From positions 1 to 64,000 of the forward strand of contig NZ_CP025807.1 in the NCBI RefSeq assembly GCF_003352085.1: 64,000 nt of DNA. Direction: 5' to 3'. The position numbers were made by a program, and so were the translations under genes. Origin of the DNA: Sulfitobacter sp. SK012 (lineage in GTDB: Bacteria > Pseudomonadota > Alphaproteobacteria > Rhodobacterales > Rhodobacteraceae). The notes beneath the pieces were generated by a model, which was not told where the DNA came from, did not search any database, and saw only the letters and a list, made by a program, of their open reading frames with translations. Shown in pieces: positions 28,328 through 52,000 of the stretch. How positions within the stretch are numbered: the first letter of the stretch is position 1; every line of letters begins with the position of its first letter.

Positions 28328-28393
28328 TAGCACGACGTTGATTGAATCCGGTGTCGTGCTGCCACCCACTAACCCGCGCTCCACCGCGGGTTA
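28328..28393 (-). promoter_or_regulatory. Nested inverted repeats between the GntR gene and the transporter genes
   Basis: TAACCCGCG (28370-28378) and CGCGGGTTA (28385-28393) form a perfect 9-bp stem with a 6-nt loop, just downstream of the regulator. AGCACGAC (28329-28336) pairs with GTCGTGCT (28353-28360). The first is likely a terminator or attenuator after gntR. The second may be an operator in front of the binding-protein gene. Roles are inferred. Confidence 0.5.
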
Positions 28394-28425
28394 GCGATTT
28401 GCTTGCCCAATTGGGCGTCGCTCCT

Positions 28426-32376: not shown

Positions 32377-32760
32377 CTAAGCAGTGTCGTCGAGAACCTT
32401 GCGCGCGACCCGAAAACACTCAAGCGCTTGTGGGACGCCGCAATAGATACCGATGACGTGGATGATCGCCCGGATTTCTTCTTTTGAGACGCCATTGTTT
32501 AATGCCCCTTTGCAATGGGTTTCCCATTCGGCCATTTTCCCAAGCGCACCGATCATAGACAGGTTCATCATTGAGCGCGTTTTGGCGTCGATCACGTCGT
32601 CACCCCAACCAAAACCCCAACACCAAGCCGTCATCGCTTCTTGAAATGGCCGCGTAAAGTCATCCGCAGCGGCGAGATTCTTTTCAACGTATTGTGCGCC
32701 AAGAGTTGCCTTGCGTTGCTCTAACCCCTTGAGGAACAAGTCTTCATCAAAAGTGCTCAT
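32377..32760 (-). CDS. Carboxymuconolactone decarboxylase (CMD) family protein
   Basis: 127-residue CMD/AhpD-fold protein: DAKTRSMMNLSMIGALGKMA and GALNNGVSKEEIRAIIHVIG are the classic helices of the PcaC/CMD family. It has no CxxC, so a peroxidase role is unlikely; a decarboxylase or lyase-like role on a ring or lactone is possible. Last gene of the RpiR-Rieske-ALDH-CMD arm, 3 bp after the ALDH gene. Confidence 0.88.
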   Translation of the reverse strand: MSTFDEDLFLKGLEQRKATLGAQYVEKNLAAADDFTRPFQEAMTAWCWGFGWGDDVIDAKTRSMMNLSMIGALGKMAEWETHCKGALNNGVSKEEIRAIIHVIGIYCGVPQALECFRVARKVLDDTA

Positions 32761-32763
32761 GTT

Positions 32764-34209
32764 TTATCCTTTAAGTTTGATTGCGACGTTCTTGGTCTGC
32801 ACATAATTCCAAAGGGCTTCGCGACCCTTTTCACGCCCATAGCCAGACCTTCCGTAGCCGCCGAAAGGCGTCTCGACACCGCCAGCGTACCATTCGTTGA
32901 CAAAAACCTGACCTGCGCGGATCTGACGGGCGGCTTGGGTCGCGCGGTTTAGATCATTGGTAAACACCCCACCGACGAGACCATAGGGCGTCCCATTGGC
33001 GATCTCGATTGCCTGCGCGTCAGTATTGAACTTAAGCACAGACAGAACGGGGCCAAAGACCTCTTCATTTGCGATGTTCATGTTAGGGGTGACGTCGGTC
33101 AGGACAGTAGGTTCAAGGAACGCACCGGGGATGTTCATCTTGTGCCCACCCGTCGCGATTTTTGCACCTTCGCTGACAGCCGCTGTGATCATGCCAACCG
33201 CACGGTCACGCTGTGCATCGGATACCATCGCACCCATTGTCGGGCCAAATTCGGGCTGCTCAATGCCGGGACCGACCTTGAGCGATTGGGCAACACCGAC
33301 AATCCGCTCGACCAATTCATCGTGAATGCTGTCGTGGGCAATCACCCGCGACATTGCCGAACAGACTTGTCCTGCATTGAAATAAATGCCCCACCGAACG
33401 TCGTTTTCAAAAGCTGCAAGATCGGCGTCGTCATGCACGATGGCAGCAGATTTCCCGCCAAGTTCCAAGACACATGGCACGACGTTCTTGGCGGCGGCGG
33501 ACGCGATTGCGATGCCTGTTTGCACCGATCCGGTGAACACGATCTGGTTCACCTGAGGATGCGCGGAAAGTGCGGCACCCGCCTCATGTCCCAAACCGCA
33601 CAAGATATTCACAGCGCCTTTCGGCAAACCCACGGCCTCGGCGGCATGAGCGAACCATGCGTTTGTTAGTGGCGTCAATTCGGGTGTTTTGATCACGACC
33701 GTGTTGCCTGTCGCAAGAGCTGCGGACAGGGATCGCGCTGTCATCTCAAGCGGGTAATTCCACGGAATGATTTGGGCTGACACGCCAAAAGGTTCATAGG
33801 TTGTAAAGTCAAAATACCCGGCACCCAATGGGATTGAACGCCCTTCGACCGTCTCGGCTTGATTGCCGTAGTATTCGAAATAGCGTGCAGCACCCTCAAC
33901 TTCTATCCGGCTTTCCCACAGCGGTTTGCCTTGCTCAAGCGTCAGAACTGGTGCGATGTCGTCGATGTTTTCGAGCAGGAAGCGCCCCATGGCTTGGACC
34001 ATGCGACCCCGTTCGACGGGGCGAAGATCGGACAGCTCGCCCGACAGGTGAACGCGCCGTGCGGCCAGGACGGCGCGGTCAACGTCTGCTGCGTCGGCCA
34101 GTGCGTGCTGGGCCAGCTTTTCACCCGTGCCAGGATTGATCACATCAATGCGGCCCGCGCCGCCATCAACCCAAGCGCCGTCGATGTAGTTTTGCCAATA
34201 GTCTTTCAT
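32764..34209 (-). CDS. Aldehyde dehydrogenase (betaine-aldehyde-dehydrogenase-like)
   Basis: 481-residue NAD-dependent enzyme: IIPWNYPLEMTARSLSAALA (cofactor), LELGGKSAAIV (Glu), NAGQVCSAMSRV (Cys), NEEVFGPVLSV. Overall similar to betaine/aminoaldehyde dehydrogenases. In the cluster it may oxidise an aldehyde released by N-demethylation or formed by the MDR alcohol dehydrogenase at 38745. It follows the Rieske gene by 42 bp. Confidence 0.92.
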   Translation of the reverse strand: MKDYWQNYIDGAWVDGGAGRIDVINPGTGEKLAQHALADAADVDRAVLAARRVHLSGELSDLRPVERGRMVQAMGRFLLENIDDIAPVLTLEQGKPLWESRIEVEGAARYFEYYGNQAETVEGRSIPLGAGYFDFTTYEPFGVSAQIIPWNYPLEMTARSLSAALATGNTVVIKTPELTPLTNAWFAHAAEAVGLPKGAVNILCGLGHEAGAALSAHPQVNQIVFTGSVQTGIAIASAAAKNVVPCVLELGGKSAAIVHDDADLAAFENDVRWGIYFNAGQVCSAMSRVIAHDSIHDELVERIVGVAQSLKVGPGIEQPEFGPTMGAMVSDAQRDRAVGMITAAVSEGAKIATGGHKMNIPGAFLEPTVLTDVTPNMNIANEEVFGPVLSVLKFNTDAQAIEIANGTPYGLVGGVFTNDLNRATQAARQIRAGQVFVNEWYAGGVETPFGGYGRSGYGREKGREALWNYVQTKNVAIKLKG

Positions 34210-34251
34210 CGCCGCAAATCCTTGTGTTTTTTGTTATTCGCTTCGGGCTGT

Positions 34252-35343
34252 TTAGGTCTGCTGGTCGCCGTCAATGGCCTCCCGCATCCAGCGCTGAAGA
34301 TGCATTACGGGATGCTCTGAATTAACACCGCCTTTGGGGTCCACGACCAAAGGTCCGGGCCGGTAGCCGCGCGATCCGAGCCCACGTTGCACGGATTCCA
34401 CCAGATGAATGTCTTCTTCCACCGTTGTTGCGCGGTCTTGCTGGGCGAGCTTACGCACGGCCTCGTTGTCTTCGCCGTCCAAAGAATACCAACCCCGCCA
34501 CAAGATCACTTGCGTCGCACTGATGGCGCGCCAGTGATAGGTATTCAGCACATTGCCCGGATAGACCTGAAAGCTGAACATCGGCCACAGGAACCAGCTG
34601 GAATATTCATCAAAATGCTTAAAGCCCGACTGAATGTCGTAGGTCATGCGATCAAGGCTTTGGCATTCGGTTGTGTGACGCAGGCACTGGCCTTGGGGTT
34701 GGATGTCGTAGGTTTCTGGCTTCACCACGCCGCTCGCAAACGTAGGGTGATTCAACGAGCAGTGGTAGCATTCAGAATAATTCTCGACCGAGACTTTCCA
34801 ATTGCAGTTCTCTGGTATTTCCACCCATTCCAGCGGCTTGAGGTCGGCCCAGTTGGGCACCCACTCTTCTAACTCGACGCGTGCGCGTGGGAACCAGTCT
34901 TCCATCGGCTTGGCATCTGGATCAAGATTCACAAAGACGAAACCAAGGAACTCTTCGACGCGCACTTCATTGAGGCAAACAGTGGATTTGTCGAACCCTT
35001 CGACCGCCTTGATATTCGGACCAGCCCGTAATTCGCCCGTCAGTTCATAGGTCCACGCGTGGTAGGGGCACACGACGACGCGGGTCGTGCCTGATCCGCT
35101 GACAAGCTGGTGCGCGCGGTGCTGGCAGACATTGTAGAACACCCGTATTTTGTCATCACGTCCACGGATCGCAAACAGGCTTTCGCCCGCAATCTCAAAT
35201 GTTGTGTAGCACCCTGTTTCGACAAGTTCTGATGAGTGGCAGCCAAACTGCCATGTGCGGGCCAGAAGGCCTGCGCGTTCGATGTCAAACACCTGCGGAT
35301 CAATGTAGTAGCGCGCGTCGAGAGATTTTACCGGGTCAGTCAT
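34252..35343 (-). CDS. Rieske non-heme iron oxygenase, alpha subunit (quaternary-amine demethylase type)
   Basis: 363-residue oxygenase. The Rieske centre is CQHRAHQL plus CPYHAWTY (Cys-x-His and Cys-x2-His), and the mononuclear iron site lies in VENYSECYHCSLNHPTF. The overall type matches glycine-betaine (GbcA), stachydrine and carnitine oxygenases, which demethylate or cleave quaternary amines. No reductase partner (GbcB-like) is encoded nearby, so electrons must come from elsewhere. The ATG overlaps the rpiR stop by 8 bp. Confidence 0.92.
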   Translation of the reverse strand: MTDPVKSLDARYYIDPQVFDIERAGLLARTWQFGCHSSELVETGCYTTFEIAGESLFAIRGRDDKIRVFYNVCQHRAHQLVSGSGTTRVVVCPYHAWTYELTGELRAGPNIKAVEGFDKSTVCLNEVRVEEFLGFVFVNLDPDAKPMEDWFPRARVELEEWVPNWADLKPLEWVEIPENCNWKVSVENYSECYHCSLNHPTFASGVVKPETYDIQPQGQCLRHTTECQSLDRMTYDIQSGFKHFDEYSSWFLWPMFSFQVYPGNVLNTYHWRAISATQVILWRGWYSLDGEDNEAVRKLAQQDRATTVEEDIHLVESVQRGLGSRGYRPGPLVVDPKGGVNSEHPVMHLQRWMREAIDGDQQT

Positions 35344-36226
35344 TCAAACCCTCATCATAAAGTCCAAGGCTATGGCGCCTTTCATGAAACTTCTCGACTC
35401 GCCCCACCATTTCATCGCTGGAAACCGCAATCACAAATGACAAAAGCGTTTCTAAGATTGCAATGGTGCTGACGGACGACGGGAAGAATTGTGGCGTTTC
35501 AGCTGACACGACAAATCCATGGTCGGCTTTGCGAATGATCGGGCTGGCGGGGCTGTCTGAAATTCCAATCACCGTGATCCCTTGTTCATTGGCGACACGC
35601 ACTGCTTCGACCACTTCGCGGCGGTAGGGCTTGCAGGTGATGGCGATCAAAACGTCGCGTTTATCGGCCCATGCAAGATCATCAATGGGAGTCGATCCTG
35701 CACGTGGAATAGCATGAAACTGGGTCATGCCCGTGGAGGCGAGATAGGTGAAATTGCGGGCGTTGGAATTGTTCACCCCGACACCCAGCGTGTAGACATT
35801 GCGCGAGGCCCAAATGGCTTCGGCGGCGGCAACCAGATTCTCGACGGAAATGCCTGCAAACGTGTCTTCGATATTGCTCAATGCGCCTTGGACCATGTCC
35901 GCATAGATACCGCCCAGATCACCTGACTTGCGGATATCTTGCAACCAACGCACCCGATCAGGGAAATTGGCATCACCGCGCCGGATTGCATCACGAAACG
36001 GCTGGCGAAAATCCTCGTAGCCTTCAAACCCGACTTGGCGCGCCATGCGCACGACGGTGTTTGGCTTAACGTTTGCGGCTTGCGCGATTTCACGGACCGT
36101 AGACACTCCCACATCACGCGGGTTTTCCAGCACATAAGTTGCGGCCTTTCTCGCCTCTGGTGTGAGGTCCGAAAGCTCGTCTGCGAGGCGCTCCAGAATC
36201 TTTGATGATACGTTTGTACTATTCAT
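35336..36226 (-). CDS. RpiR/MurR-family transcriptional regulator
   Basis: 296 residues with an N-terminal helix-turn-helix (VSTVREIAQAANVKPNTVVR) and a C-terminal SIS sugar-phosphate-binding domain (VYTLGVGVNNSNARNF and VIGISDSPASPII). It lies at the divergence point between the Rieske arm and the flavoprotein arm, with only 50 bp between start codons. It probably controls both. Its ligand is unknown; many relatives in amine clusters sense non-sugar intermediates. Confidence 0.92.
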   Translation of the reverse strand: MNSTNVSSKILERLADELSDLTPEARKAATYVLENPRDVGVSTVREIAQAANVKPNTVVRMARQVGFEGYEDFRQPFRDAIRRGDANFPDRVRWLQDIRKSGDLGGIYADMVQGALSNIEDTFAGISVENLVAAAEAIWASRNVYTLGVGVNNSNARNFTYLASTGMTQFHAIPRAGSTPIDDLAWADKRDVLIAITCKPYRREVVEAVRVANEQGITVIGISDSPASPIIRKADHGFVVSAETPQFFPSSVSTIAILETLLSFVIAVSSDEMVGRVEKFHERRHSLGLYDEGLND

Positions 36227-36276
36227 TATTGACGATGGTATATTTGTCCGCTTAACCTGTCGAGGACTTTTTACAC

Positions 36277-38748
36277 ATGAGGTGCTGCGTGGCTGAACAA
36301 AATTTCCCGACCCACGCGAAGGTCGTCATTGTGGGCGGCGGTGTCATGGGCTGTGGCCTTGCGTACCATCTTGCACATGAAGGCTGGGACGATGTTGTGC
36401 TGCTTGAAAAGGCGGAACTGACCAGCGGCAGCACTTGGCACGCGGCGGGCCAGATCACCCATTCGACCAGCTCATTCGGGCTGGGCAAATGTGTGGACTA
36501 CAACATCGGGCTGTATTCTGGCGGGCTCGAGACCGAGACCGGCCAGCCCGTCACGTGGCATGGCTGCGGATCCTTCCGTCTTGCCTATACCGAGGATGAG
36601 ATGGATTGGCTGCGCCATACCCTGTCTGTGGGGCGTTCATTAGGCTTCAACATTGAACTGGTCGGGCCGGAAAAGGTCGCTGAACTGCATCCGTTCTATA
36701 ATCTCGAAGGTGTCATAGGGGCTTTGTACACGCCTGATGACGGTCACGTGGACCCATCGAACGTTACGATGGCCATGGCAGCGGGTGCGCGCCAAAAAGG
36801 CGCGCGTATTGTGCGCCATTGCCGCGCGACGAACATCACCCAAGCGGCGAATGGCGAGTGGATTGTAGAGACCGAGAAGGGAGTGATCACCTGCGAGCAT
36901 GTCGTCAATGCGGGCGGCACTTATGCGCGCCAAATGGGCGAATGGTCGGGCCTGCAATTACCGATGACGTCAATGACACACCACTATTTTGTCACTGAAA
37001 ACGTTCCGGAGTTTGAGAGTCTTGACCGCGAGCTCCCCGTTATTCGAGACGACAAAAAGGTGTCAGGCTACATCAGGATGGAGCAAAAGCGGGGGCTGAT
37101 TGGGATCTACGAAAAGGCCAATCCAAATTCTGTTTGGCACGACGAATGTCCTTGGGATTATGAAAACTGGCTGTTCGATGCTGACTATGATCGCGTCATG
37201 CCGTGGCTTGAGGAAAGCCTGAACCGGATGCCAATTTTTGCGGACCTTGGCATCACGCGCGAAGTGCACGGCGCGATTTCACATCCCCCTGATGGCAATC
37301 CGTTGATTGGACCCGCACCCGGTGTGCAGAACTATTGGTGCTGTTGCGGTACGCAGATCGGTATCGGCTGGGGGCCGGGGCTGACGCGCGAATTGGCGCG
37401 TTGGATGGTGCACGGCGCGGCTGATATCTCGATGCGCGATTATGACCCGCGCCGCTTTGGCAGCTACGCAAACAAAGAATGGCAGGTCGTCAAAGCTGAA
37501 GAAGACTACTGCCTGCGCCACGAGATCCCTTTCCCGCATTTCAACCGCCTCGCGGGCCGCCCGATCAAGCCGTCACCGCTGTATGACTTGCTGAATTCCA
37601 AAGGCGCAGTTCACGAAGAGGTTTACGGGTTTGAACGCCCCCGCTGGTTTGCCCGCGATGGAGTGGCGCAAGAAGACCACTATTCATTCCGGCGCAATGC
37701 AGTGCACGACATGGTCGGTGCCGAAGTCAAAGCCGTGCGCGAAGCGGTTGGCATTATGGACGTGACTGCCTTTACCAAAGTGTTGGTCAGTGGCGCGGGC
37801 GCCCATGACCTGCTGGACCGTTTGACGGCCAACAAGATGCCGCAAAAGGTGGGATCGATCACGCTGACCCATATGCTGAACCGTCGCGGGCGGATCGAGT
37901 TGGAAACGACTATCGTCAAGATGGGTGAGGATAGCTATTACCTTGTTTGTGCTGCATTCTTTGAACAACGGCTACTGGATCATCTCAACCACAACCAACG
38001 TGATGAGACCGTGAGTATCACGGCACTTTCATCGGATTGGTCGGCCCTGTCCCTGAACGGCCCAAAGGCACGTGATGTCTTGGCGGCTTGCACGGATACC
38101 CCACTCGATAACGCATCTTTTCGCTGGCTTTCGGCGCAAGAAATCACAGTTTCCGGTCACAAGGTATGGGCATTCCGGATGTCTTACGCGGGGGAGTTGG
38201 GCTGGGAATTCCACATGCCATTTGCTGCCTGTCTGGACGTCTACACCGCACTCTGGGCGGCAGGCGAAGCGCATGGGATTACCAACTACGGGTCATTTGC
38301 GATGAACGTCATGCGGATGGAGAAGGGTTTTAAAGGTGCGGGCGAACTCACCAACGAGGTTACCTTGCCAGAGGCAGACGTGATGCGATTTGTGCGTTCT
38401 GACAAGGCGTATCTGGGCAAAGAGCAGACACTTGCAAATGCGGATGATCTGCCGTGGATTTGTGCCTATTTGGAAATCGAACCTGACGGTGTCGAGGATG
38501 GTCATGGCGGCGAGGCAGTGCTGTTGGAGGGGGCAGTTGTCGGGTCGACGGCATCGGTGGCCTATGGGCATACAGTCGGCAAAATTCTGGCTTTCGCATA
38601 TATCAAGCCACATGCCGCCACGCCGGGAACATCCCTAAAGGTAGTCATCGCAGGCGAGCCCCGCGCCGCCAAAGTATTGGGTGAGGCCGCGTATGATCCA
38701 CAAAGCCTTTTGCCTCGTGTCGATAGCACAGCAAAGGAGCCGCAATGA
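36277..38748 (+). CDS. Dimethylglycine/sarcosine dehydrogenase-like flavoprotein with GcvT domain
   Basis: 823-residue two-domain enzyme. The N-terminal FAD oxidoreductase has VVIVGGGVMGCGLAYHL and SGSTWHAAGQ with His55 at the position of the covalent-FAD histidine in known members. The C-terminal half (about 440-820) is an aminomethyltransferase/GcvT fold (LSLNGPKARDVLAACT, YAGELGWEFHMP, FAMNVMRMEKGFKGAG) that passes the removed methyl to tetrahydrofolate. It would N-demethylate a tertiary or secondary amine after Rieske cleavage. GTG 36289 is an alternative start. It is first in the plus-strand arm and overlaps the next gene (ATGA). Confidence 0.93.
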   Translation: MRCCVAEQNFPTHAKVVIVGGGVMGCGLAYHLAHEGWDDVVLLEKAELTSGSTWHAAGQITHSTSSFGLGKCVDYNIGLYSGGLETETGQPVTWHGCGSFRLAYTEDEMDWLRHTLSVGRSLGFNIELVGPEKVAELHPFYNLEGVIGALYTPDDGHVDPSNVTMAMAAGARQKGARIVRHCRATNITQAANGEWIVETEKGVITCEHVVNAGGTYARQMGEWSGLQLPMTSMTHHYFVTENVPEFESLDRELPVIRDDKKVSGYIRMEQKRGLIGIYEKANPNSVWHDECPWDYENWLFDADYDRVMPWLEESLNRMPIFADLGITREVHGAISHPPDGNPLIGPAPGVQNYWCCCGTQIGIGWGPGLTRELARWMVHGAADISMRDYDPRRFGSYANKEWQVVKAEEDYCLRHEIPFPHFNRLAGRPIKPSPLYDLLNSKGAVHEEVYGFERPRWFARDGVAQEDHYSFRRNAVHDMVGAEVKAVREAVGIMDVTAFTKVLVSGAGAHDLLDRLTANKMPQKVGSITLTHMLNRRGRIELETTIVKMGEDSYYLVCAAFFEQRLLDHLNHNQRDETVSITALSSDWSALSLNGPKARDVLAACTDTPLDNASFRWLSAQEITVSGHKVWAFRMSYAGELGWEFHMPFAACLDVYTALWAAGEAHGITNYGSFAMNVMRMEKGFKGAGELTNEVTLPEADVMRFVRSDKAYLGKEQTLANADDLPWICAYLEIEPDGVEDGHGGEAVLLEGAVVGSTASVAYGHTVGKILAFAYIKPHAATPGTSLKVVIAGEPRAAKVLGEAAYDPQSLLPRVDSTAKEPQ

Positions 38749-39827
38749 CATTACCCGAAAAAATGTGCGCGATGGTCACGATGGGACACGGCGATCTGGA
38801 CCAGATCGAGTTGCACGAAAACTGGCCACGACCCGTTCCCGCTGCGGACGAGGTATTGATCCGCGTGCTGGCTTGCGGGCTCAACAATACGGACGTCAAC
38901 ACGCGTTCGGGCTGGTATTCCAAGGCTGTTTCTGAGGCCACTACCGGTGGCGCTTTTAATGAAGTCTCCGACGAGGACCCGACTTGGGGCGGCGCGCCCA
39001 TCAGCTTTCCGCGGATCCAAGGTGCCGATGTCTGCGGCGAGATCGTGTCGGTTGGCGCGCAAGTCGACCCAGCGCGCATCGGAGACCGGATCATAACGGA
39101 CAACTGGCTGCGTGATGCCGACGATCCTTTGGACAAGAACAAGACGGGCTACTTCGGATCAGAACGTGATGGTGGTTTTGCCGAATTCACGACGATCCCG
39201 TCGCGCAATGCGATCGCCATTCTGTCCGATTTTTCAGACGCTGAACTGGCAACCTTCTCATGCTCTTATTCAACTGCTGAAGGGATGTTGACCCGCGCCA
39301 ATGTTACAAAGGCCGATACGGTGCTGGTGCCAGGCGCATCGGGTGGTGTTGGCGGGGCTTTGGTGCAATTGGCGAAACGGCGCGGGGCACGTGTGATCGC
39401 ACTCGCGTCCGAAGCTAAACACGCGGATGTCACGGCCCTTGGCGCGGATGTGGTTTTGCCTCGTTCGCCAGAAAACCTTCGCACCGCGTTGGGTTCAGAC
39501 AAAATTACTGTGGTCGCGGATGTCGTGGGCGGACCTTATTGGTCAACATTGATTGATATTCTCGAGCGGGGTGGGCGCTATACCTGCTCCGGTGCGATTG
39601 CTGGTCCAATGGTCGATCTTGATTTGCGCACGTTCTATTTGCGCGATCTTACCTTTACGGGTTCCACCGTGATTGACCCCGAAGTAACCGCAAATCTTGT
39701 AGGCTATATCGAAGCCAAAGAGATAAAGCCGTCCCTTGCAGCCACTTACCCGCTGGCCGAACTACGAGAGGCCCAAGCAGCTTTTATCGCCAAGCAACAC
39801 ACCGGAAACATTGTGGTGACCCCATGA
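38745..39827 (+). CDS. MDR-family alcohol dehydrogenase / quinone reductase-like protein
   Basis: 360-residue medium-chain dehydrogenase. GroES-like half with LACGLNNTDVNTRSGWY and GADVCGEIVSVG; NAD(P)-binding half with VLVPGASGGVGGALVQLAKRRG. The catalytic-zinc cysteine is replaced (GLNNTD rather than C-x-TD), and structural-zinc cysteines are absent, so it may be a zinc-free reductase. An insertion (YSKAVSEATTGGAFNEV) follows the substrate loop. It overlaps both neighbours by ATGA. Confidence 0.88.
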   Translation: MTLPEKMCAMVTMGHGDLDQIELHENWPRPVPAADEVLIRVLACGLNNTDVNTRSGWYSKAVSEATTGGAFNEVSDEDPTWGGAPISFPRIQGADVCGEIVSVGAQVDPARIGDRIITDNWLRDADDPLDKNKTGYFGSERDGGFAEFTTIPSRNAIAILSDFSDAELATFSCSYSTAEGMLTRANVTKADTVLVPGASGGVGGALVQLAKRRGARVIALASEAKHADVTALGADVVLPRSPENLRTALGSDKITVVADVVGGPYWSTLIDILERGGRYTCSGAIAGPMVDLDLRTFYLRDLTFTGSTVIDPEVTANLVGYIEAKEIKPSLAATYPLAELREAQAAFIAKQHTGNIVVTP

Positions 39828-42209: not shown

Positions 42210-42317
42210 GCGTTGGTCTTGAAGTTAAGGAGTAGGTTCGGATCGACAGACCAGATGGTTGTCGCAGTTCGCATCGCTCGACACCGAAGTTCAATTCACC
42301 TCATGGACGCGCAGCGG

Positions 42318-42626: not shown

Positions 42627-42686
42627 TAGTCGATAGGTGGTTAAGGTCAGCGGCGTAGGGGTTGTCGAAGTCGATTCGTACCAGCG

Positions 42687-43535: not shown

Positions 43536-44950
43536 GTTTCTGGCGGGGGGGTCGCCCCCGGTGCGCCGAGTTTCAGCGCGGCCTCACGCCCACCGTGGCT
43601 TGCGATGAGTGCTGCCTGATCCGCGAATGCCATCGCATTGACGGCCTCGGGGTCGATGATCTTGTAAAGTTCTTTGGTCAACTCGGTCATTGCATTTGCA
43701 TGTTTTGGGTCGGCGGCAAGGTTGTTTGCCTCTTCCGGATCTGCAATTAGATCAAATAGTTCCGGTTCGAACCCGATGTAGGTGTTCAATTTGTAACGTC
43801 CCTTGCGCAGCATATAAGCCGCCGAAACCGCCCCAACGGCGTGGTATTCGCTGAAGACCACACGATCGAGGTCATCCTTGCGACCTAAGATCCTGGTGAG
43901 CGGCTCGCCCACGCATTCGAACTCCAACCCGAAATGGGCAGGGATCGTGGCCGAGATATCCAGCAGGTCAACAGGGGTATCACAAGTGCCAATTGGAACG
44001 TCGGGTCCAGCCATAATCATTGGAACGGCTACGGATTCCTGGTACAGGTTGGACTTCCCCCAAAGCCCGCGCGCGCCGACATTGTCACCGTGGTCTGACG
44101 AATAGATCACCGTGGTATCCTGCAACAATCCGGCCTCATCGAGGGCGGCCATTATACGCCCGACGTTGTAGTCCATCCAACTGACCAACCCGTAGTAGGC
44201 GGCAACCGCATCGCGTCGTTCCGCCTCTGAAGAAAACTGCGGTTCGCTGTCCATCTGCGCGTTTTGCAACTCGGCCCAAGGATGGCGTTTGTAGCCGTCT
44301 TTGGGGTTCATCTTTGGCTCTGGTAAACTGTCCGGAGGATAAAGGTCAAAGAACTCTTGCGGGACAACAAGCGGGAAATGTGGTGCGACAAGCCCGACGT
44401 AAAGACACCACGGCTGATCATCTTGCGCGTGATCGGACAGCCAATTCGCCGTGCGTTCGGTCACAGCCTCATCGTAGTCGGTGTATTTGCTGGTGCCCGG
44501 CCCAATGTACTCTCCCAGCATTCGGGTTTTGGGAGAGATCCGCTCGCTCTGTTTTCTGATAGAGCCCCACACCATCCCGACTCCGTTGACTACGTGCATG
44601 GGGATGTGCTCTTGGTCAAATCCAGCCGGATCACCCGCCTTTCGGTAATGGAGCTTGCCGATGCTCTCCACGGGCACACCCGCGTCCTGCAAGCAGTGCC
44701 CCCAACCAGGAATTTGCCCGTGATACGGCATTGCATTGTCCCAAAGGCGATTTTGGTGGGCATATTGGCCCGTTGCAAAGCTCGCTCTTGCGGGAACGCA
44801 GATCGGGGACGGCGTGTAGGCATCGCTAAACCGTGTCCCGCGTGCGGCTAATGCATCAAGGTGCGGGGTTTTGACAAAGGGATGACCAGCACACCCCATC
44901 GCACCAGCCTGATGTTCGTCAGACAATATGACCAAAAGATTTGAGGGCAT
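43532..44950 (-). CDS. Type I sulfatase (choline-sulfatase-like)
   Basis: 472-residue formylglycine-dependent sulfatase. The CVPARASFATG motif (C-x-P-x-R) marks the Cys converted to formylglycine. ILSDEHQAG at the N-terminus and IYSSDHGDNVG supply metal ligands. It resembles choline-O-sulfatase and phosphonate-monoester-hydrolase relatives. No signal peptide, so cytoplasmic: the sulfated substrate must be imported first, consistent with the facing TctCBA transporter. The last 32 residues (FADQAALIASHGG... GAPGATPPPET) recur in the chimeric gene at 51716. Confidence 0.92.
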   Translation of the reverse strand: MPSNLLVILSDEHQAGAMGCAGHPFVKTPHLDALAARGTRFSDAYTPSPICVPARASFATGQYAHQNRLWDNAMPYHGQIPGWGHCLQDAGVPVESIGKLHYRKAGDPAGFDQEHIPMHVVNGVGMVWGSIRKQSERISPKTRMLGEYIGPGTSKYTDYDEAVTERTANWLSDHAQDDQPWCLYVGLVAPHFPLVVPQEFFDLYPPDSLPEPKMNPKDGYKRHPWAELQNAQMDSEPQFSSEAERRDAVAAYYGLVSWMDYNVGRIMAALDEAGLLQDTTVIYSSDHGDNVGARGLWGKSNLYQESVAVPMIMAGPDVPIGTCDTPVDLLDISATIPAHFGLEFECVGEPLTRILGRKDDLDRVVFSEYHAVGAVSAAYMLRKGRYKLNTYIGFEPELFDLIADPEEANNLAADPKHANAMTELTKELYKIIDPEAVNAMAFADQAALIASHGGREAALKLGAPGATPPPET

Positions 44951-45423
44951 CAGAGTTCGACCTCCTTAGCTGCGGTTTCAAGAATAGCGAGCATGCGGCG
45001 CAGGTTCGCAACGTCGTCTGCGCTGAGTTTGGATTGCAGGTTTGCTTGGCGTTGGCGCATCTTGGGCAACGCGATGCTAAAGACCTCTTTGCCCTTTGGC
45101 GTCAGGCTCAGCACATGGACCCTGCTATCTTTGCGGTGCTCGGTCGAAACAATTAAGCCGCCTTCGATCAGCGCCTTTAAATTGCGGCTAACAAGTCCTT
45201 TGTCCATGCCTGTATATCTGACCAACTCTGATGCAGTGACCTTCTCTCCACCGCCAACAAACGCAATCATGCGCCACTGGTTCAGCGTTACGCCGACTGT
45301 GTCGCCCAAGATCTTGGTTGCTTGGGTGTTCAGCTTCTGATGAAGGCGGGCAATGCGGTACGTCAAAAAGCTGCTTAGCTGGGCCAGCTGCGGATTGAAG
45401 TTATCTGGGGTCTCGTCGTTCAT
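44950..45423 (-). CDS. MarR-family transcriptional regulator
   Basis: 157 residues, full-length MarR: dimer helix LSSFLTYRIARLHQKLNTQA, winged helix ASELVRYTGMDKGLVSRNLK, ALIEGGLIVSTEHRKDSRVH, VLSLTPKG. First gene of the MarR-sulfatase-hydrolase operon, overlapping the sulfatase start by one base. A perfect 20-bp palindrome 42 bp upstream, facing tctC, is its likely operator. Confidence 0.92.
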   Translation of the reverse strand: MNDETPDNFNPQLAQLSSFLTYRIARLHQKLNTQATKILGDTVGVTLNQWRMIAFVGGGEKVTASELVRYTGMDKGLVSRNLKALIEGGLIVSTEHRKDSRVHVLSLTPKGKEVFSIALPKMRQRQANLQSKLSADDVANLRRMLAILETAAKEVEL

Positions 45424-45464
45424 CGTCCACCTCTGCGGACGACCATCAATGCAACGAGGGGCAA

Positions 45465-45484
45465 CGTCAACTAATTAGTTGACG
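45465..45484. promoter_or_regulatory. Perfect 20-bp palindromic operator between marR and tctC
   Basis: CGTCAACTAATTAGTTGACG reads the same on both strands. It lies in the 108-bp divergent region and matches the length and symmetry of MarR operators. Binding here would control both the sulfatase operon and tctCBA-sulfatase. Confidence 0.75.
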
Positions 45485-45531
45485 GGACAACCATCATATG
45501 ACTTGCTGTACTCGAAATCTGGGAGGATTCT

Positions 45532-46482
45532 ATGAAAAAGCTAATTGTAGCCGCGACTGCGGCCCTTTCCATCGCGGCATCTGCCGTCACTGTTCAGGCA
45601 CAAGACTGGACGCCACCAGGCCCGATCAAGCTCATGATCGCCTTCGGTGCAGGTGGTGGTGCTGATACGCAAGCCCGCCTGATCGCAACCGAGCTTGAGG
45701 ACCGCTTGGGCTGGGAATTCATTCCCGAGCAGGTGACTGGCAAAGGTGGCGTCAACCTTTTGTTGGAGATGCAGGACGAGGCCAACGACGGAACTGTCAT
45801 CGGCATGGTTGTTACTGAATCGCTCGGTTACAATCTCTACACTGCAGACGTAGGTCTGACGCCCGAAGACTTTACTGTCATCACTACAACCGCAGGCACT
45901 CAGATGGGTATCGTCGCAGGTGCGGGTACTGGCTGGACGTCGTTTGACGACATGGTAGCGGCCGCGGAAGCGGGACAGGAAATCCGCTTTGGGGTTATGA
46001 CCCAGCGACTGGGTGAACTCGCCTATTTATTGGGTCAAGCGCAGGGCATTGACCTAAATATCATCACCGTTCAAGGCGGCCGTGCTGTCTTAAACGGCGT
46101 GACCGCGGGTGACATGGATGTGGGCTTCATGGCGGGCATTCAAGGCCCCGGTGTCGAGGCCGGTGACCTTGTGAACCTCGCCTCAGGAATGGCCAGGCCA
46201 CTGAACCAAACACCGGACGCACCAACGCTACCCGATCTGGGCGTTGATTTTGATGGGGCTGCCGTCTTTTTGTTCGTTGGGCCCGATGGCATGCCAGATG
46301 ACGCGCGCAACGCGATCGCAGCGGCAATTACCGAGGTGACGTCCGATCCTTCAACTGAGGCTGGGGCTTTGATCGAACGTGCGTTTGGAGGATCGATGAA
46401 CCTTCAAGGGGCGGAGCTTGAAGAATTAACCATGCGCGACTTCACCGAATCCGAGGCCCTGATTGAAGCGGCTGCGGAATAA
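45532..46482 (+). CDS. tctC: Tripartite tricarboxylate transporter binding protein TctC
   Basis: 316-residue periplasmic binding protein of the TTT family. Signal peptide to about residue 23 (AVTVQA). The family blocks PIKLMIAFGAGGGADTQARL and VTGKGGVNLLLEMQ are present. Binds an organic acid for the TctBA channel. GGGAGG sits 8 bp before the ATG. First gene of tctCBA-sulfatase; substrate unknown, perhaps a sulfated or betaine-type acid. Confidence 0.92.
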   Translation: MKKLIVAATAALSIAASAVTVQAQDWTPPGPIKLMIAFGAGGGADTQARLIATELEDRLGWEFIPEQVTGKGGVNLLLEMQDEANDGTVIGMVVTESLGYNLYTADVGLTPEDFTVITTTAGTQMGIVAGAGTGWTSFDDMVAAAEAGQEIRFGVMTQRLGELAYLLGQAQGIDLNIITVQGGRAVLNGVTAGDMDVGFMAGIQGPGVEAGDLVNLASGMARPLNQTPDAPTLPDLGVDFDGAAVFLFVGPDGMPDDARNAIAAAITEVTSDPSTEAGALIERAFGGSMNLQGAELEELTMRDFTESEALIEAAAE

Positions 46483-46542
46483 AACCACCTATCTGCGGGC
46501 GTCCTGAAAGGGGCGCCCGTTGTGTATCTGGAGGAATGTCAC

Positions 46543-47109
46543 GTGTCAGCACAATCGCGATCCAACCTATATCTCGGACTGATTTGCGTTGGCGTCGCTT
46601 TGGTGCTGATTTTCATCTGGATACCACTAGACACTAAGACAGGCATCGTTGAGCGGTCGCGGGGCAAATTCATTATCGGCGACGCTTTGGCTCCAACCGT
46701 CGCTGCAGGATTCGTTCTTTTGGGCGGCCTTGTGTTGTGTGTATTTGAGCGAAGTGCGGACGCCCAACCCGATCTGCGCAAAGACCAAATCACATTTGTC
46801 GCCATGCTGTCGGCTGTCGTAATTGTCAGCATCGGTATCATGCGGTTTGCCGGACCTGCCGCCGCCGAGTTCACCAATATGTTTCGGAATGAACCGATTG
46901 AGTATCGCCTTCTGCGCGCCACTCCAGGCTGGAAACACATCGGGTTCATATTGGGTGGCGTGACCATGGTCAGCGGGATCGTTGCCATCGTTGAACATAG
47001 GCTTTCAAGCCGTGCTGTCTTAACAGGCATCGTCGCTGTGTTGGTCTTGATCGCAGTCTTCGACTTACCGTTTGAAGACTTGTTGTTGCCACCTAATGGT
47101 GATGTGTGA
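46543..47109 (+). CDS. tctB: TTT transporter small membrane subunit TctB
   Basis: 188 residues with four hydrophobic segments, typical of the poorly conserved TctB subunit. GTG 46543 is chosen: GGAGGA lies 7 bp upstream. The stop overlaps the first base of tctA. Confidence 0.85.
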   Translation: MSAQSRSNLYLGLICVGVALVLIFIWIPLDTKTGIVERSRGKFIIGDALAPTVAAGFVLLGGLVLCVFERSADAQPDLRKDQITFVAMLSAVVIVSIGIMRFAGPAAAEFTNMFRNEPIEYRLLRATPGWKHIGFILGGVTMVSGIVAIVEHRLSSRAVLTGIVAVLVLIAVFDLPFEDLLLPPNGDV

Positions 47110-48701
47110 TGGACGCCCTAGACTATATCTGGCTAGGCATTCAGGCTGTTTTTATGGGTCCAGAAGCATTTAGCGTCTTGGGTCTCTCGGTATCAATCAC
47201 CGTCATGATGGTGCTGGCAGGGTTCTTATTTGGCATCGTGGTGGGTGCCACGCCAGGATTGGCGGGGCCGTTCGCCATGGCAATTTCCTTGCCTATCCTA
47301 ATCTCGGTGTTCGGTTACTCACCTGACGCATTGTTACCTGTCATGGGTTTCTTAATTGGTATCATGAAAGGGGCTACTATTGGTGGCGCCGTTCCGGCGA
47401 TCCTATTCAACACTCCCGGTACGCCAGACGCCTTCATGACCACTTTGGACGGCTTCCCGATGGCCCAAAAGGGACAAGCGAAGAAGGCGCTGAGGGTAGC
47501 TCATTTTTCCTCAGCATCGGGAGATACGTTCTCCGACCTCGTCCTTTTTGTCTGCGCACCCTTCCTTGCGATCATCGTCGAAAGCTACCTCGATCTGCCC
47601 GAAAAGACCGGACTTTTGATCCTGTCTCTGAGCTTTATTGCAGCCGTCATCGGCGGATCGGTGGGAAAAGGTCTCATCTCCATTGGTCTTGGTTTGTTAG
47701 CAGTTTATGTCGGAACGGGTGAGGATTTCTACCCGCGTCTATCCTTAGGGGCAGACGGCCTGTCGCGCGGATTTCCTATCACGACTTCTGTCCTCGGCGT
47801 GTTGATTATCGGGGCGGTCTTCAAAGAGCTGGATGAGGTATGGCGCCAAAACCGGCGATCCAAAGCAACCCCTGTTATTACCCAAAAAGGTGATCAAAAA
47901 CTCCATTGGGTCGATATCAAACGCCTTTCCCCGTTCATCGCGCGTTCGGCCTTGATCGGAACAGTCATCGGCGCGCTACCGGGCGTTGGGTCCACGCTCG
48001 CAGCAACGCTTGGCTATTCGTCCGGGCGTATGCAGCATCAGAAATCGAAACCGGTCGGTGCGCCCGACTTTGGAGAAGGCGCGCCCGAAGGGATAGCCGC
48101 AACAGAGGCCGCCAACAGTGCGGTTTCTGGAGCAAACCTGATCCCAGTCCTCTCGCTTGGTATTCCGGGCAACGCGGCAGCGGTGTTCTTGATCCTCGCC
48201 GCGGAGTCCATCGGCGGGTTCAACCCGGGCCCAGCCGTGTTCCGGTTCTCACCCGATATCCTGAACCCTGAACTGGTTGTCGCCTTCGGTCTGTTCACTT
48301 GCATGACCATCGCCAACTTTTTCAACTGGACAATTGGCGGCGTTTTCATGCGGTCCATGGGGTTCATGATCAATATCCCCAAATCGCTTTTGCTGCCTGC
48401 AGTACTTTTGCTTACCCTTACTGCTATCTACGTCCAAGAAACGCGGCTCGAAGCTATCTGGTTTGCCCTTGGCTTTGGCGTGCTAGGCTACATCATGCGG
48501 GTTCTGACGATATCCCCGTTACCTTTCATCATCGCCTTTATTCTAGGGCGAAATCTCGAGGAAACCGCCCGTCAGGCCTATTCCGCGACAGGCAACGATC
48601 CGTTTTTCCTCTTTAACAACCCAATCGCTTTGATCTTTATTCTCATGTCCGTCGCCGTGATTATCTTCTCGGGACGAAAACCTAAGAAAGACGCGCAATG
48701 A
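47109..48701 (+). CDS. tctA: TTT transporter large membrane subunit TctA
   Basis: 530-residue permease with about eleven hydrophobic segments. Conserved TctA sequences: FGIVVGATPGLAGPFAMAIS, GGAVPAILFNTPGTPDAF, IGALPGVGSTLAATLGYSS and LSLGIPGNAAAVFLILAA. ATG 47109 overlaps tctB by one base; GTG 47106 is possible. The stop overlaps the sulfatase ATG (ATGA). Confidence 0.95.
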   Translation: MDALDYIWLGIQAVFMGPEAFSVLGLSVSITVMMVLAGFLFGIVVGATPGLAGPFAMAISLPILISVFGYSPDALLPVMGFLIGIMKGATIGGAVPAILFNTPGTPDAFMTTLDGFPMAQKGQAKKALRVAHFSSASGDTFSDLVLFVCAPFLAIIVESYLDLPEKTGLLILSLSFIAAVIGGSVGKGLISIGLGLLAVYVGTGEDFYPRLSLGADGLSRGFPITTSVLGVLIIGAVFKELDEVWRQNRRSKATPVITQKGDQKLHWVDIKRLSPFIARSALIGTVIGALPGVGSTLAATLGYSSGRMQHQKSKPVGAPDFGEGAPEGIAATEAANSAVSGANLIPVLSLGIPGNAAAVFLILAAESIGGFNPGPAVFRFSPDILNPELVVAFGLFTCMTIANFFNWTIGGVFMRSMGFMINIPKSLLLPAVLLLTLTAIYVQETRLEAIWFALGFGVLGYIMRVLTISPLPFIIAFILGRNLEETARQAYSATGNDPFFLFNNPIALIFILMSVAVIIFSGRKPKKDAQ

Positions 48702-50221
48702 GCAGACCCAACATCATCCTGATTTCAGCTGACCAACACCGTGCCGATTTCATGGGCTTTAAGGGGCGCAAGATTAAGACGCCGCATTTGGATCAACTGG
48801 CCACTGAGGGGACCGTATTTGATGCCTGCATCACGCCGTCAGTCGTTTGCCAGCCTGCCCGTGCATCGATCCTGACAGGCCAGCTGTGCCGCACACACGG
48901 GGTCCATGACAACGGGATCGATCTGCCGCCCGAGATTGGTGAAAAGGGCTTTGCCGGTTCAATGGCTGCGGCAGGGTATCAGACCAGCTATTTCGGCAAG
49001 GCGCATTTTTCGACCTACCATACCTACGAGCCGACCGGCACGCCTGAGTGCCTGCGGTCTTCGGCCAGCTACCCCGACACTTGGTACGGACCCTATATGG
49101 GTTTCGAACATGTTGAGTTGATGCTGGTCGGTCACAACTGGTGGGCGCCCGAAAAGCCACCTGCGGGCCAGCACTATGAACGTTTCTACCATATGGACGG
49201 CAAAGGTGATGAACGCACCAAGCTGATGTGGGAAAACGCGGGTGATACCAAGGGGGCGGCACAAGTCTGGCATTCCAAACTGCCCGTGGCCTATCACAAC
49301 ACACCATGGACAGCGGATCGCGCGATTGAATGGCTGCGACATGGGCGGGATGACGAAAAACCGTTCTGCACTTGGATTAGCTTCCCCGATCCACACCACC
49401 CGTTTGATTGCCCCGAACCATGGTCGCGGCTGCATGATCCGGCAGACGTCGATCTGCCCGAAAACCGCTCACGATCCTATGAAGGCAAGCCCTGGTGGCA
49501 CGAGGCCGCGATGGAGGGTGAGCCAGCCGATCCGAAGTTCGCCGACATCCGCAAAGCCTACAGCCGCATCCCGCCACAAACAGATGAACAGTTGCGCGAG
49601 ATTATCGCCAACACCTATGGCCAGATCGCGTTTATTGACCATCAGGTCGGGCGGATCATGAACACGCTTATGGAAGAAGGCCTCGATGAGAACACCATCG
49701 TCATCTACATCTCGGACCACGGCGACTGGATGGGCGACCACGGGTTGATCCTGAAAGGGCCAATGCACTACGAAGGGCTGTTGAAGGTACCGATGATCGT
49801 CAAAGGCCCCGGTGTGCCCGCGGGTAAAGTTGTCGATGAACCCGTCTCGACCCTCGATCTTGGGCCGACCTTCTTTGATTACGGTGGGGCTGATGCGCAT
49901 CTCTCTCAGCACGGCGAAAGCCTGCGCCCCCTCATCGAAGGCGACGCAACCCGCGATTTCGCGCGCAACGAATGGGGGCTTTTGCCGGGCCGCGTTGGCG
50001 TGGCGTTGGAGTTGCGGACAGTGCGCACGCGGACACATAAACTGACCATGGATTTGATCTCAGGCGCCGGTGAAATGTACGACCTTGAAAAGGATCCAGA
50101 CGAAATGGTGAACTTGTTTGACGCGCCCGGAGCCGCCCATGTTCAGGCTGTGTTGAAAGGCTACATCGACAGCCGTCCAAGCGACGTTCTGCCAGATCAG
50201 GTTCCGGTCGGTACTGCGTGA
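48698..50221 (+). CDS. Type I sulfatase (second, co-operonic with tctCBA)
   Basis: 507-residue formylglycine sulfatase. VVCQPARASILTGQL has the C-x-P-x-R motif with Gln in the second position. NIILISADQHRADFMG and VIYISDHGDWMGDHG hold the calcium ligands. It is distinct from the 43532 sulfatase and lacks its GAPGATPPP tail. No signal peptide. Its overlap with tctA says the imported compound is the likely sulfate ester. Confidence 0.93.
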   Translation: MSRPNIILISADQHRADFMGFKGRKIKTPHLDQLATEGTVFDACITPSVVCQPARASILTGQLCRTHGVHDNGIDLPPEIGEKGFAGSMAAAGYQTSYFGKAHFSTYHTYEPTGTPECLRSSASYPDTWYGPYMGFEHVELMLVGHNWWAPEKPPAGQHYERFYHMDGKGDERTKLMWENAGDTKGAAQVWHSKLPVAYHNTPWTADRAIEWLRHGRDDEKPFCTWISFPDPHHPFDCPEPWSRLHDPADVDLPENRSRSYEGKPWWHEAAMEGEPADPKFADIRKAYSRIPPQTDEQLREIIANTYGQIAFIDHQVGRIMNTLMEEGLDENTIVIYISDHGDWMGDHGLILKGPMHYEGLLKVPMIVKGPGVPAGKVVDEPVSTLDLGPTFFDYGGADAHLSQHGESLRPLIEGDATRDFARNEWGLLPGRVGVALELRTVRTRTHKLTMDLISGAGEMYDLEKDPDEMVNLFDAPGAAHVQAVLKGYIDSRPSDVLPDQVPVGTA

Positions 50222-50292
50222 CCGTAGGCTGCTGCACGTCATGTGGCACGTTGTAGCCGCTGTAGATTTGTACGGACTCTAGGGACAGTTTT

Positions 50293-51678
50293 TCAGTTAA
50301 TAGCGACTACCTTGCCCGGGTTCATAAGGTTCTTGGGATCGACTGCGCGTTTCAGGGTTGCCATTAGCGCATAAGCCGCGCCGTGTTCCTCAGCCATGTA
50401 CCCCATCTTGCCGGTCCCTATGCCATGCTCTCCAGTCACCGTCCCGCCGAAGGAAAGTGCCACATGATTAACCTGTGCGGCCAGCGCTTTTGCCTCAATG
50501 AGCTCTTCGGAATCGCTTGGGTCGAACAAAATAAGCAGGTGGAAGTTTCCGTCTCCGACATGTCCTACGATAGGAGCAATTAGACCTGCTTCGCTTACCA
50601 ACTCTTTGGTTCGTGCAATGCATTCGGCCAGCGCCGAAATTGGAACGCAGCAATCAGTGACGACGCCGTCGCAACCCTTACGTAGTGACTTTGCAGCATA
50701 GTAGGCATTGTGGCGGGCTTCCCACAGACGATTGCGATCTTCCGCCTTGGTCGCCCATTCGAAGCCCGAGACGCTAAATTCTTCGCCTACACTTTCAAAC
50801 AGCTCTACCTGCTCTTTCACGCCAGCATCGGAGCCATGAAACTCGAGGAACAAATGCGGCGTCTCGGGCAGGTTCAGATCGGGATTGAAGATGTTCATCC
50901 CTTTCATTTGCAACTCATCCAGAAGCTCAACCCGAGCCAGAGGGAGCCCCATTTGAATAGCCATAATCACAGTATTCACCGCATCATCGACACTATCAAA
51001 CGCGCAGGTGGCGGCGAGGATTGTGTCCGGATGGCCAAACAGGCGTACTGTCAGCTGTGTGATGATCCCCAGCGTCCCTTCCGAGCCAACAAATAGGTGT
51101 GTCAGATCGTATCCGGACGAAGATTTACGCGCCCGCGAACCAGTTTTGATGATCGTTCCGTCAGGCAAAACAACCTCAAGTGCTAGCACATTTTCGCGCA
51201 TGGATCCGTATCGAACGGTGTTGGTTCCCGAGGCCCGGGTCGCAGCCATCCCGCCAAGTGTGGCGTCTGCACCTGGATCGACCGTGAACATCAATCCAGT
51301 AGCACGCAAGTCTTCGTTCAGCTGGGTCCGGGTGACACCGGGCTGTACAACAGCATCCAAGTCGCTTTCGTGGATTTCGAGAACCTTGTTCATTCGGCTC
51401 GTGTCGACACTGATCCCACCGTGGATCGGAATAACATGGCCCTCAAGTGACGTGCCTATGCCGAAAGGTACAACGGGAACCTGGTATTCTGAACAAACCT
51501 TCATCAACGCAGAAACCTCTTCAGTGCTTTCGGGAAATGCCACGGCATCCGGCAGTGCCGGTTTAGAATAAGCCTCGTCACGGCCATGAATTTCCCGGAT
51601 GGAGTCTCCGGTTGAAAGGCGCTCACCCAGTAGGTCTTTTAACGCAGCAATGGCGTTAGCAATATTGTTCTGAACCAC
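50293..51678 (-). CDS. FAD-linked oxidase, D-lactate dehydrogenase / GlcD-like
   Basis: 461-residue flavoprotein oxidising a 2-hydroxy acid. FAD-binding PCMH domain: VVPFGIGTSLEGHVIPIHGG and DPGADATLGGMAATRASGTN; C-terminal cap: VGHVGDGNFHLLI and GTVTGEHGIGTGKMGYM. Family members use D-lactate, D-2-hydroxyglutarate or glycolate. GTG 51678 gives the normal N-terminus; the frame is open to 51780. It lies downstream of the chimeric remnant and is separated from the sulfatase by 71 bp of convergent spacer. Confidence 0.9.
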   Translation of the reverse strand: MVQNNIANAIAALKDLLGERLSTGDSIREIHGRDEAYSKPALPDAVAFPESTEEVSALMKVCSEYQVPVVPFGIGTSLEGHVIPIHGGISVDTSRMNKVLEIHESDLDAVVQPGVTRTQLNEDLRATGLMFTVDPGADATLGGMAATRASGTNTVRYGSMRENVLALEVVLPDGTIIKTGSRARKSSSGYDLTHLFVGSEGTLGIITQLTVRLFGHPDTILAATCAFDSVDDAVNTVIMAIQMGLPLARVELLDELQMKGMNIFNPDLNLPETPHLFLEFHGSDAGVKEQVELFESVGEEFSVSGFEWATKAEDRNRLWEARHNAYYAAKSLRKGCDGVVTDCCVPISALAECIARTKELVSEAGLIAPIVGHVGDGNFHLLILFDPSDSEELIEAKALAAQVNHVALSFGGTVTGEHGIGTGKMGYMAEEHGAAYALMATLKRAVDPKNLMNPGKVVAIN

Positions 51679-51715
51679 TTCAGTTCCCCTTGTTCTTTCT
51701 GGAAGAGATGTCTGG

Positions 51716-52000
51716 TCAAATTTTTGGTGGTGGCGTGGCCGAAGGCGCACCCATGGTCGCCGCAACGGCTTTGCCGCCATAGCCTTCGATCATGGCTTCT
51801 TGGTCTGCGAACAACGGTGTCATCGCAGCATAAGGACCGAAATAAGTCGTATTTCCTGCGGCGTGCCAAGTTGATCCAGACGTCAATTCGCGGCTCTCGA
51901 TCAATAGGCTGTCAGTCCAACCCATCTTTGCGAGCCAATACAGCACCGACGCACCAACGATGCCGCCCCCAACGACCGCAACCTGAACATCAGCTTTCAT
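51716..52000 (-). pseudogene. Chimeric remnant: DMG-dehydrogenase N-terminus fused to a sulfatase C-terminus
   Basis: 94-codon frame. The first 60 codons are an FAD-binding start (VAVVGGGIVGASVLYWLAK, SGSTWHAAGNTTYFGPY), like dimethylglycine/sarcosine dehydrogenases. The last 33 (PLFADQEAMIEGYGG through GAPSATPPPKI) match the C-terminal tail of the sulfatase at 43532 (FADQAALIASHGG, GAPGATPPPET). The in-frame joint is near 51812-51823. A deletion seems to have fused two neighbouring genes and removed about 750 residues of the flavoprotein and most of a third sulfatase. No function is expected. Confidence 0.75.

Follow-up and report, generated by a model that had tools for sequence, protein, structure and literature searches.

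A plasmid of Sulfitobacter sp. SK012 with two adjacent, probably self-contained catabolic modules

We analyzed the first 64 kb (hereafter the window) of contig C4 of Sulfitobacter sp. SK012, in which the original prediction had read one block of genes as a single catabolic pathway for a sulfated, N-methylated organic acid. A single pathway was not supported by the neighbourhood comparison or the promoter motifs. Instead, the block (32377–51780), which lies on a plasmid, probably consists of two adjacent catabolic modules, each complete in itself. Judged by its genes, module R (32377–42209) most likely N-demethylates a chiral compound resembling a betaine, and module S (42687–50221) probably takes up a sulfated carboxylate and cleaves off its sulfate; a GlcD-like gene (50293–51780) lies beyond S. 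The genes form two divergent pairs of runs, with CMD, ALDH, Rieske and RpiR facing DMGDH-GcvT, MDR, ENO and aminotransferase AT3 in R, and MBL, SULF1 and MarR facing TctCBA and SULF2 in S. Contig C4 (92,816 bp) is one of four contigs of a 5.18-Mb assembly. Genes for RepB/ParB, RepC and a MobA/VirD2-type relaxase at its left end (window 1–7019) identify this 92.8-kb contig as a plasmid of the RepABC type.

A gene-neighbourhood comparison, named beforehand as the refuting test of the single pathway, found that both modules occur independently. For R, we compared the best 80 of 556 confirmed ENO loci (85–92% identity, from a search of named genomes using ENO as query), each reaching at most ~10 kb to either side of ENO; 60 are at least 20 kb long and 20 are shorter. 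None of the 80 held an orthologue of an S gene, and only matches of 22–33% identity were seen, in five loci (L016, L020, L035, L053, L059). For S, a SULF2 scan gave 29 of 295 family genomes (E ≤ 1e-120) and 16 of 390 order genomes (E ≤ 1e-170), SK012 being counted in both. We compared 30 S loci with SULF2 at 55% identity or more, excluding the window, some other scan hits and L139 (44%); some of these loci end at contig ends. R genes were present in the fetched stretch of one of the 30 (genome G020). With strict markers, which drop lower-identity genomes (G007, G025, G201, G210 and G243 for SULF2; G140 and G194 for ENO), 24 of the 295 family genomes carried SULF2, 30 carried ENO and ten carried both, so that 20 of the 30 ENO genomes were without SULF2 and 14 of the 24 SULF2 genomes without ENO. 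An R-type ENO was also missing from eight of ten further SULF2 genomes, three of which have distant homologues (33–40%). The alternative that the original prediction had itself allowed, two neighbouring unrelated pathways, is favoured because of this independent occurrence. Its remark that these functions are seldom seen together holds for the entire block, and each half is a recurring unit by itself.

Linkage of R and S within 20 kb was found only in the window (genome G000) and in G020. Their arrangement is opposite: in G020, S is next to the CMD end of R, and in the window it is next to the AT3 end. In G176 the two markers are ~172 kb apart on one contig, and the seven remaining strict double-positives have them on different contigs, several of them short. 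Different contigs also carry the markers in G352 and G427; G352 has the SULF2 closest to that of the window (92%) and an ENO at 89%, unlinked. No SULF2 was detected in any of the 16 other genomes of the same genus listed in the order sample at the limit used (E ≤ 1e-170). Given the unlinked markers of G352 and the same-genus genomes without SULF2, the adjacency in the window is most simply read as a recent plasmid arrangement. Among double-positives with a fetched ENO locus, G020, G126, G190 and G230 hold R, and G176 holds MDR and ENO only. A search of a plasmid collection (E ≤ 1e-100) returned one ENO match (48%) and six SULF2 matches.

The two modules also have different conserved promoters. 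The RpiR–DMGDH intergenic region (36227–36276), the putative promoter/operator region of R, contains conserved gATTGACGATGGTA and TTAgCCTGTCGAG. We aligned 71 such regions, from 66 of the 80 ENO loci, four more loci and the window, with at least two pairs coming from the same record. The columns of gATTGACGATGGTA were 92–100% identical and those of TTAgCCTGTCGAG 82–100%, and the stretch between them was more variable. The R motif occurs once in the window, as a copy with two mismatches at 36237–36254. Between marR and tctC lies a perfect palindrome, GTCAACTAATTAGTTGAC (45466–45483), the likely operator of S and the sole exact match in the window. The MarR–TctC regions of 24 loci share a GTCAAC-N6-GTTGAC palindrome, with exact GTCAA-N8-TTGAC in 14 of them. 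Three further matches in the window have two mismatches, and the total of four is at chance level (2.6 expected). In G020 each promoter bears its own motif with one mismatch, and two further S hits with two mismatches lie elsewhere. An operator common to R and S was considered and rejected, as each motif stands at its own promoter in both the window and G020. By position, the sites would belong to RpiR and MarR, respectively.

From gene content we infer the reactions of both modules, their substrates and the pairing of regulators with operators. The compound degraded by R would be of the amino-acid type, quaternary or N-methylated and probably chiral. Its Rieske oxygenase (34252–35343, minus strand; PF00355, PF00848) is of the quaternary-amine type and was present in 58 of the 60 R loci of at least 20 kb, in which genes were counted at 45% identity (cupins and GFA excepted). 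The best PDB match was carnitine monooxygenase CntA (6y8j, 216 bits), and in alignment with CntA the protein keeps ECYHC with its putative bridging Glu, the putative iron ligands and the ED..VESVQRGL segment. Fed by an unlinked reductase, the enzyme would take off a methyl group as formaldehyde; family profile searches of the block genes found no reductase gene in the block. The DMGDH-GcvT flavoprotein (36277–38748, plus strand; PF01266, PF16350, PF01571, PF08669; 57/60), with a folate-binding domain, has the DAO + FAO_M + GCV_T + GCV_T_C architecture of dimethylglycine dehydrogenase, whose structure 5l46 is the closest in the PDB (503 bits), and keeps WHAAG. It is predicted to be an N-demethylase that transfers further methyls onto tetrahydrofolate.

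ENO (39824–40930, plus strand; 60/60), an enolase-superfamily enzyme close to PDB 3eez (745 bits), would act at the alpha-carbon by racemisation, epimerisation or elimination. The class-III aminotransferase AT3 (40923–42209, plus strand; PF00202, 219 bits; 54/60) resembles glutamate-1-semialdehyde aminomutase, structures of which are its closest matches (up to 309 bits). Its start may be ATG 40923 rather than TTG 40914, and ENO is overlapped in either case. Together with the optional aldehyde dehydrogenase ALDH (32764–34209, minus strand; PF00171, 519 bits; 15/60), whose best NCBIfam model is BADH (TIGR01804, 429 bits, below the cut-off of 668.6), AT3 may feed the freed amino acid into central metabolism. 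The other genes of R encode a carboxymuconolactone-decarboxylase family protein, CMD (32377–32760, minus strand; PF02627, 67.4 bits; 41/60), an MDR-family dehydrogenase/reductase (38745–39827, plus strand; PF08240, PF00107; 55/60) and the RpiR-family regulator (35336–36226, minus strand; PF01418, PF01380; 60/60) that would control the module. A betaine is suggested as substrate because of the CntA-like Rieske protein, the DMGDH-like enzyme, the GFA genes in 16 of the 60 loci, and a pair of genes on contig C3 of the same genome. There, divergent homologues of MDR (52%) and ENO (38%) adjoin an ABC importer of the glycine-betaine type, with an ATPase and two OpuAC-type binding proteins, which supports a betaine for this enzyme pair.

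The R module is widespread. ENO loci are spread over many Roseobacters and also occur in records titled SAR116, Halieaceae and Gammaproteobacteria, and a protein collection yielded 1506 close ENO relatives (clusters at E ≤ 1e-120, of 7998 candidates scored), with 87–92% identity among the 120 matches listed. Over all 80 loci, including those on short contigs, and with a threshold of 28% identity across 40% of the query, we found ENO in 80, ENOc in 73, DMGDH in 72, MDR and RpiR in 70 each, AT3 in 69, Rieske in 68, ENOa and CMD in 45 each, AMD in 31, a sulfotransferase in 29, ALDH in 18 and GFA in 17. RpiR, DMGDH and ENO were jointly present in 66. Beyond the genes already counted, the 60 longer loci held ENOc in 58, a cupin in 43, ENOa in 38 and AMD in 28. 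R is thus longer in relatives, with up to two extra enolase-superfamily genes (ENOa, ENOc) between DMGDH and AT3. In L020, ENOa is close to PDB 2rdx (682 bits), and ENOc has no close structure (best 268 bits).

Many of these relatives encode a cupin of the family of DddQ, a lyase of dimethylsulfoniopropionate (DMSP). The cupin was found in 51 of the 80 ENO loci (CUP1 in 49, CUP2 in two), and none was found in the other 29, some of which end at contig ends. In a PDB comparison, the best matches of the L134 cupin were DddQ structures (189 bits); Pfam confirmed two cupins, and the rest were called by similarity to these, down to 33%. In the 295-genome sample, at least 13 of the 30 strict ENO genomes had a PF16867 match within 4 kb of ENO (tables read by eye). 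CUP1 follows MDR at a distance of −30 to 60 bp in 45 of 45 pairs, with a 4-bp overlap in 33, and CUP1–ENOa junctions fall in the same range in 31 of 31 pairs, with a 4-bp overlap in 27; because the script chose, for each gene, the start codon closest to the stop before it, both figures are biased towards tight junctions. By position, MDR would be the counterpart of the MDR gene adjoining dddQ in relatives. The window's R has RpiR, Rieske, DMGDH, MDR, ENO and AT3 in order together with the conserved RpiR–DMGDH promoter, an arrangement shared with the dddQ operon. A family profile search found no cupin among its genes at 36277–42209. The sole PF16867 match of the SK012 genome (C4:63737–64072, 71 bits) lies in an open reading frame (63641–64276) at the right window edge, ~21 kb from R, whose product is 25% identical to the L134 cupin (CUP1).

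Module S would import an anionic sulfate ester through TctCBA; cytoplasmic hydrolysis would follow, by one of the two formylglycine sulfatases or by both. TctC (45532–46482, plus strand; PF03401, 41.5 bits; 27/30 S loci) is the solute-binding protein, with a signal peptide by eye, and TctA (47106–48701, plus strand; PF01970, 309 bits; 28/30) the permease. The TctB-like small protein (46522–47109, plus strand) matched PF07331 weakly (17.7 bits, cut-off 29.1), and its position between tctC and tctA fits. Of the TctCBA importer named in the original prediction, TctA and TctC both score above cut-off. SULF1 (43532–44950, minus strand; PF00884, 150 bits; 27/30) and SULF2 (48698–50221, plus strand; PF00884, 154 bits; best PDB match 6pt4, 167 bits) are both S1 sulfatases by PF00884 above cut-off and a C-x-P-x-R motif, CVPAR and CQPAR respectively, at residue 51. 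No signal peptide was visible by eye in either, in agreement with the earlier view that they are not secreted. The metallo-beta-lactamase-fold protein MBL (42687–43535, minus strand; PF12706, 61.8 bits; HYHSDH; 21/30) may be an additional hydrolase. MarR (44950–45423, minus strand; PF12802, 55.2 bits; 24/30) would control S via the GTCAAC-N6-GTTGAC site. Convergent with SULF2, the GlcD-like FAD-linked oxidase (minus strand; PF01565, PF02913) scored 336.6 bits with TIGR00387, below the glycolate oxidase GlcD cut-off of 567.9. It was counted with S because homologues with 71% and 79% identity adjoin the S-type clusters L126 and L153, respectively; as a possible partner of S, it would probably oxidise the freed 2-hydroxy acid.

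Over the 30 S loci, SULF2 was present in 30, TctB in 28 and the other S genes as given above. Two kinds of S locus were distinguished, the window's kind being MBL-SULF1-MarR opposite TctCBA-SULF2. Near the other kind were FMN-dependent dehydrogenase homologues (5/30; Pfam confirmed two of the five), AbrB (5), FGE (5) and GlcD homologues (2, counted at 60% identity or more). The GlcD and FMN-dehydrogenase homologues suggest a hydroxy acid as the product in S. Aromatic acids are also a possible substrate class, because two intradiol-dioxygenase-type genes are present in L126, an S-type cluster located on contig C3 of SK012. On this second catabolic contig (107 kb; L126, L162, L163), TctCBA/sulfatase clusters occur twice, together with genes of the FGE and intradiol-dioxygenase types and one for an FMN-dependent dehydrogenase. 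In L133, a trimethylamine-methyltransferase-family (MTTB) gene (15958–17451) stands immediately after SULF1.

Several observations weigh against this reading of the block. ENO and SULF2 were found together in ten genomes where 2.4 were expected with the strict sets (Fisher p 2e-5) and in 12 where 3.1 were expected with the loose sets (SULF2 29, ENO 32; p 5e-6). Among 149 dmdA-positive genomes (E ≤ 1e-100; 125 above the family cut-off), SULF2 occurred in 19, ENO in 26 and both in nine, with 3.3 expected (p 0.001); such statistics control phylogeny only partly. G020 provides a second adjacency, with S directly beside R. ENO alone is an imperfect marker of R, and some linkages may have escaped detection because many contigs are short. 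Most S loci have no GlcD gene, and the window's R is without the ENOa, ENOc, cupin, AMDase/EutA-like and GFA genes of its relatives, so its pathway may be shortened. A sulfate theme recurs near R, since a sulfotransferase-family gene (PF19798; e.g. L136:2211–2957) is present in 27 of the 60 longer R loci and since the stretch just downstream of R in L020 (14687–18131) holds a true choline sulfatase (698.7 bits, against a cut-off of 433.45) along with one Rieske and one SDR gene. The sulfotransferase gene is missing from R of the window and of G020, the two with S beside R. Finally, no importer conserved near R across genera was seen among the 30 largest clusters of open reading frames flanking the 80 ENO loci, as assessed on their first 50 residues, and R could borrow one; a neighbourhood shared by up to 21 loci, with Ruegeria as the source of the six displayed, has an exporter-like ABC ATPase and permease pair. 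The excess of co-occurrence leaves room for a loose link of R and S. A single pathway, in which Tct would import a sulfated N-methylated acid, the sulfatases would desulfate it and R would demethylate and degrade the product, is nevertheless quite unlikely: S orthologues are absent from the ENO loci, most ENO genomes are without SULF2 and most SULF2 genomes without R-type ENO, regulators and promoter motifs differ, and the markers lie on different contigs in G352.

Other readings of the R substrate were also weighed. Its ENO matches 4e8g (219 bits), 4h2h and 2pmq (179 bits each), which we take to be betaine epimerases or racemases, and its Rieske and N-demethylase genes are of the kinds expected of a hydroxyproline-betaine/proline-betaine pathway. 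A variant of that pathway is still unlikely, as ENO is much nearer 3eez and 2qdd (370 bits), the hydroxyproline oxidase and the DHDPS-family deaminase are absent from the module's genes, and an aminotransferase is not known to be a step of that pathway. An operon for DMSP or dimethylsulfoxonium propionate (DMSOP) specifically could be argued from the DddQ-family cupin of the relatives and its tight junction with MDR. PMC3338564 reports likely co-transcription of an MDR028 gene with dddQ in R. pomeroyi and with dddQ1/dddQ2 in Rv. nubinhibens, and PMC10686828 reports a higher efficiency of DddQ with DMSOP than with DMSP. On the other hand, DMSP is nitrogen-free and the core of R is a Rieske/DMGDH set with an aminotransferase, 29 loci and the window's R yielded no cupin, and, as reported in PMC3338564, an E. 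coli yhdH mutant was not rescued by the MDR gene of Rv. nubinhibens. We consider a specific DMSP/DMSOP operon very unlikely. A tentative possibility, held with low confidence, is that R is a widespread marine operon for a chiral betaine, such as a hydroxylated amino-acid betaine or an algal betaine-lipid head group, within which DddQ evolved as one step (an elimination on a betaine intermediate), with cleavage of DMSP/DMSOP as a side activity.

Profile matches and reading-frame coordinates confirmed the gene families named in the original prediction. Its tight overlaps were borne out in part: 4 bp are shared at DMGDH/MDR, MDR/ENO, SULF1/MBL, TctB/TctA and TctA/SULF2, 1 bp at MarR/SULF1 and 8 bp at RpiR/Rieske. 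Although closely packed, the run 36226–32377 leaves 42 bp between Rieske and ALDH and 3 bp between ALDH and CMD, and in the run 45532–50221 TctC and TctB are separated by 39 bp. Of three regulators placed at the divergence points, RpiR and MarR are whole, and the third is a MarR-family remnant (42318–42626, minus strand) whose PF01047 match begins at profile position 9, the N-terminal part being missing; no further regulator candidate was found inside the block. As to the proposed route, gene content supports Rieske/DMGDH-type N-demethylation, cytoplasmic desulfation and Tct import.

We found neither R nor S described as a system in the literature searched (titles and abstract starts, with most subscription papers outside the search), and no assigned substrate for R, though structures near two of the operon enolases (3eez, 2rdx) are solved. 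The R operon is the more interesting outcome, being widespread and conserved, with a DddQ-family gene in about two thirds of its loci (51/80). If its substrate were found, a dddQ inside a nitrogen-demethylation operon would bear on the natural role of DddQ and on the marine sulfur cycle. Module S appears to be a compact unit for the cytoplasmic use of sulfate esters. Elsewhere in the window (20444–29175) are genes for a mandelate-racemase-type enzyme (20444–21619), a GMC oxidoreductase, an ABC ATPase, a periplasmic binding protein and a GntR-type regulator.

Among known systems, SULF1 and SULF2 resemble choline sulfatase BetC in being of the formylglycine type with no visible signal peptide, but scored 265 and 202.7 bits with the BetC model (TIGR03417), below its cut-off of 433.45. 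The Rieske protein of R is of the quaternary-amine kind of CntA and GbcA; it differs from GbcA in score (150.7 bits with NF058607, cut-off 670), and R differs from the CntA system in that a reductase gene was not found in the block. The pathway of 4-hydroxyproline betaine 2-epimerase (HpbD) uses a Rieske oxygenase and N-demethylation, and R is like it in combining these with an enolase-superfamily enzyme. A hydroxyproline-betaine cluster is expected to hold a hydroxyproline oxidase and a DHDPS-family deaminase, whereas R has an aminotransferase, no such oxidase/deaminase genes and an ENO closest to 3eez. In the Roseobacter dddQ cluster (Ruegeria pomeroyi SPO1593, SPO1596; Roseovarius nubinhibens ISM_14095), MDR adjoins the cupin. 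The window's R differs in having no cupin, the genome's only PF16867 protein being distant; the likeness lies in the relatives of R, where the cupin stands in a run with RpiR, Rieske, DMGDH, ENO and AT3.

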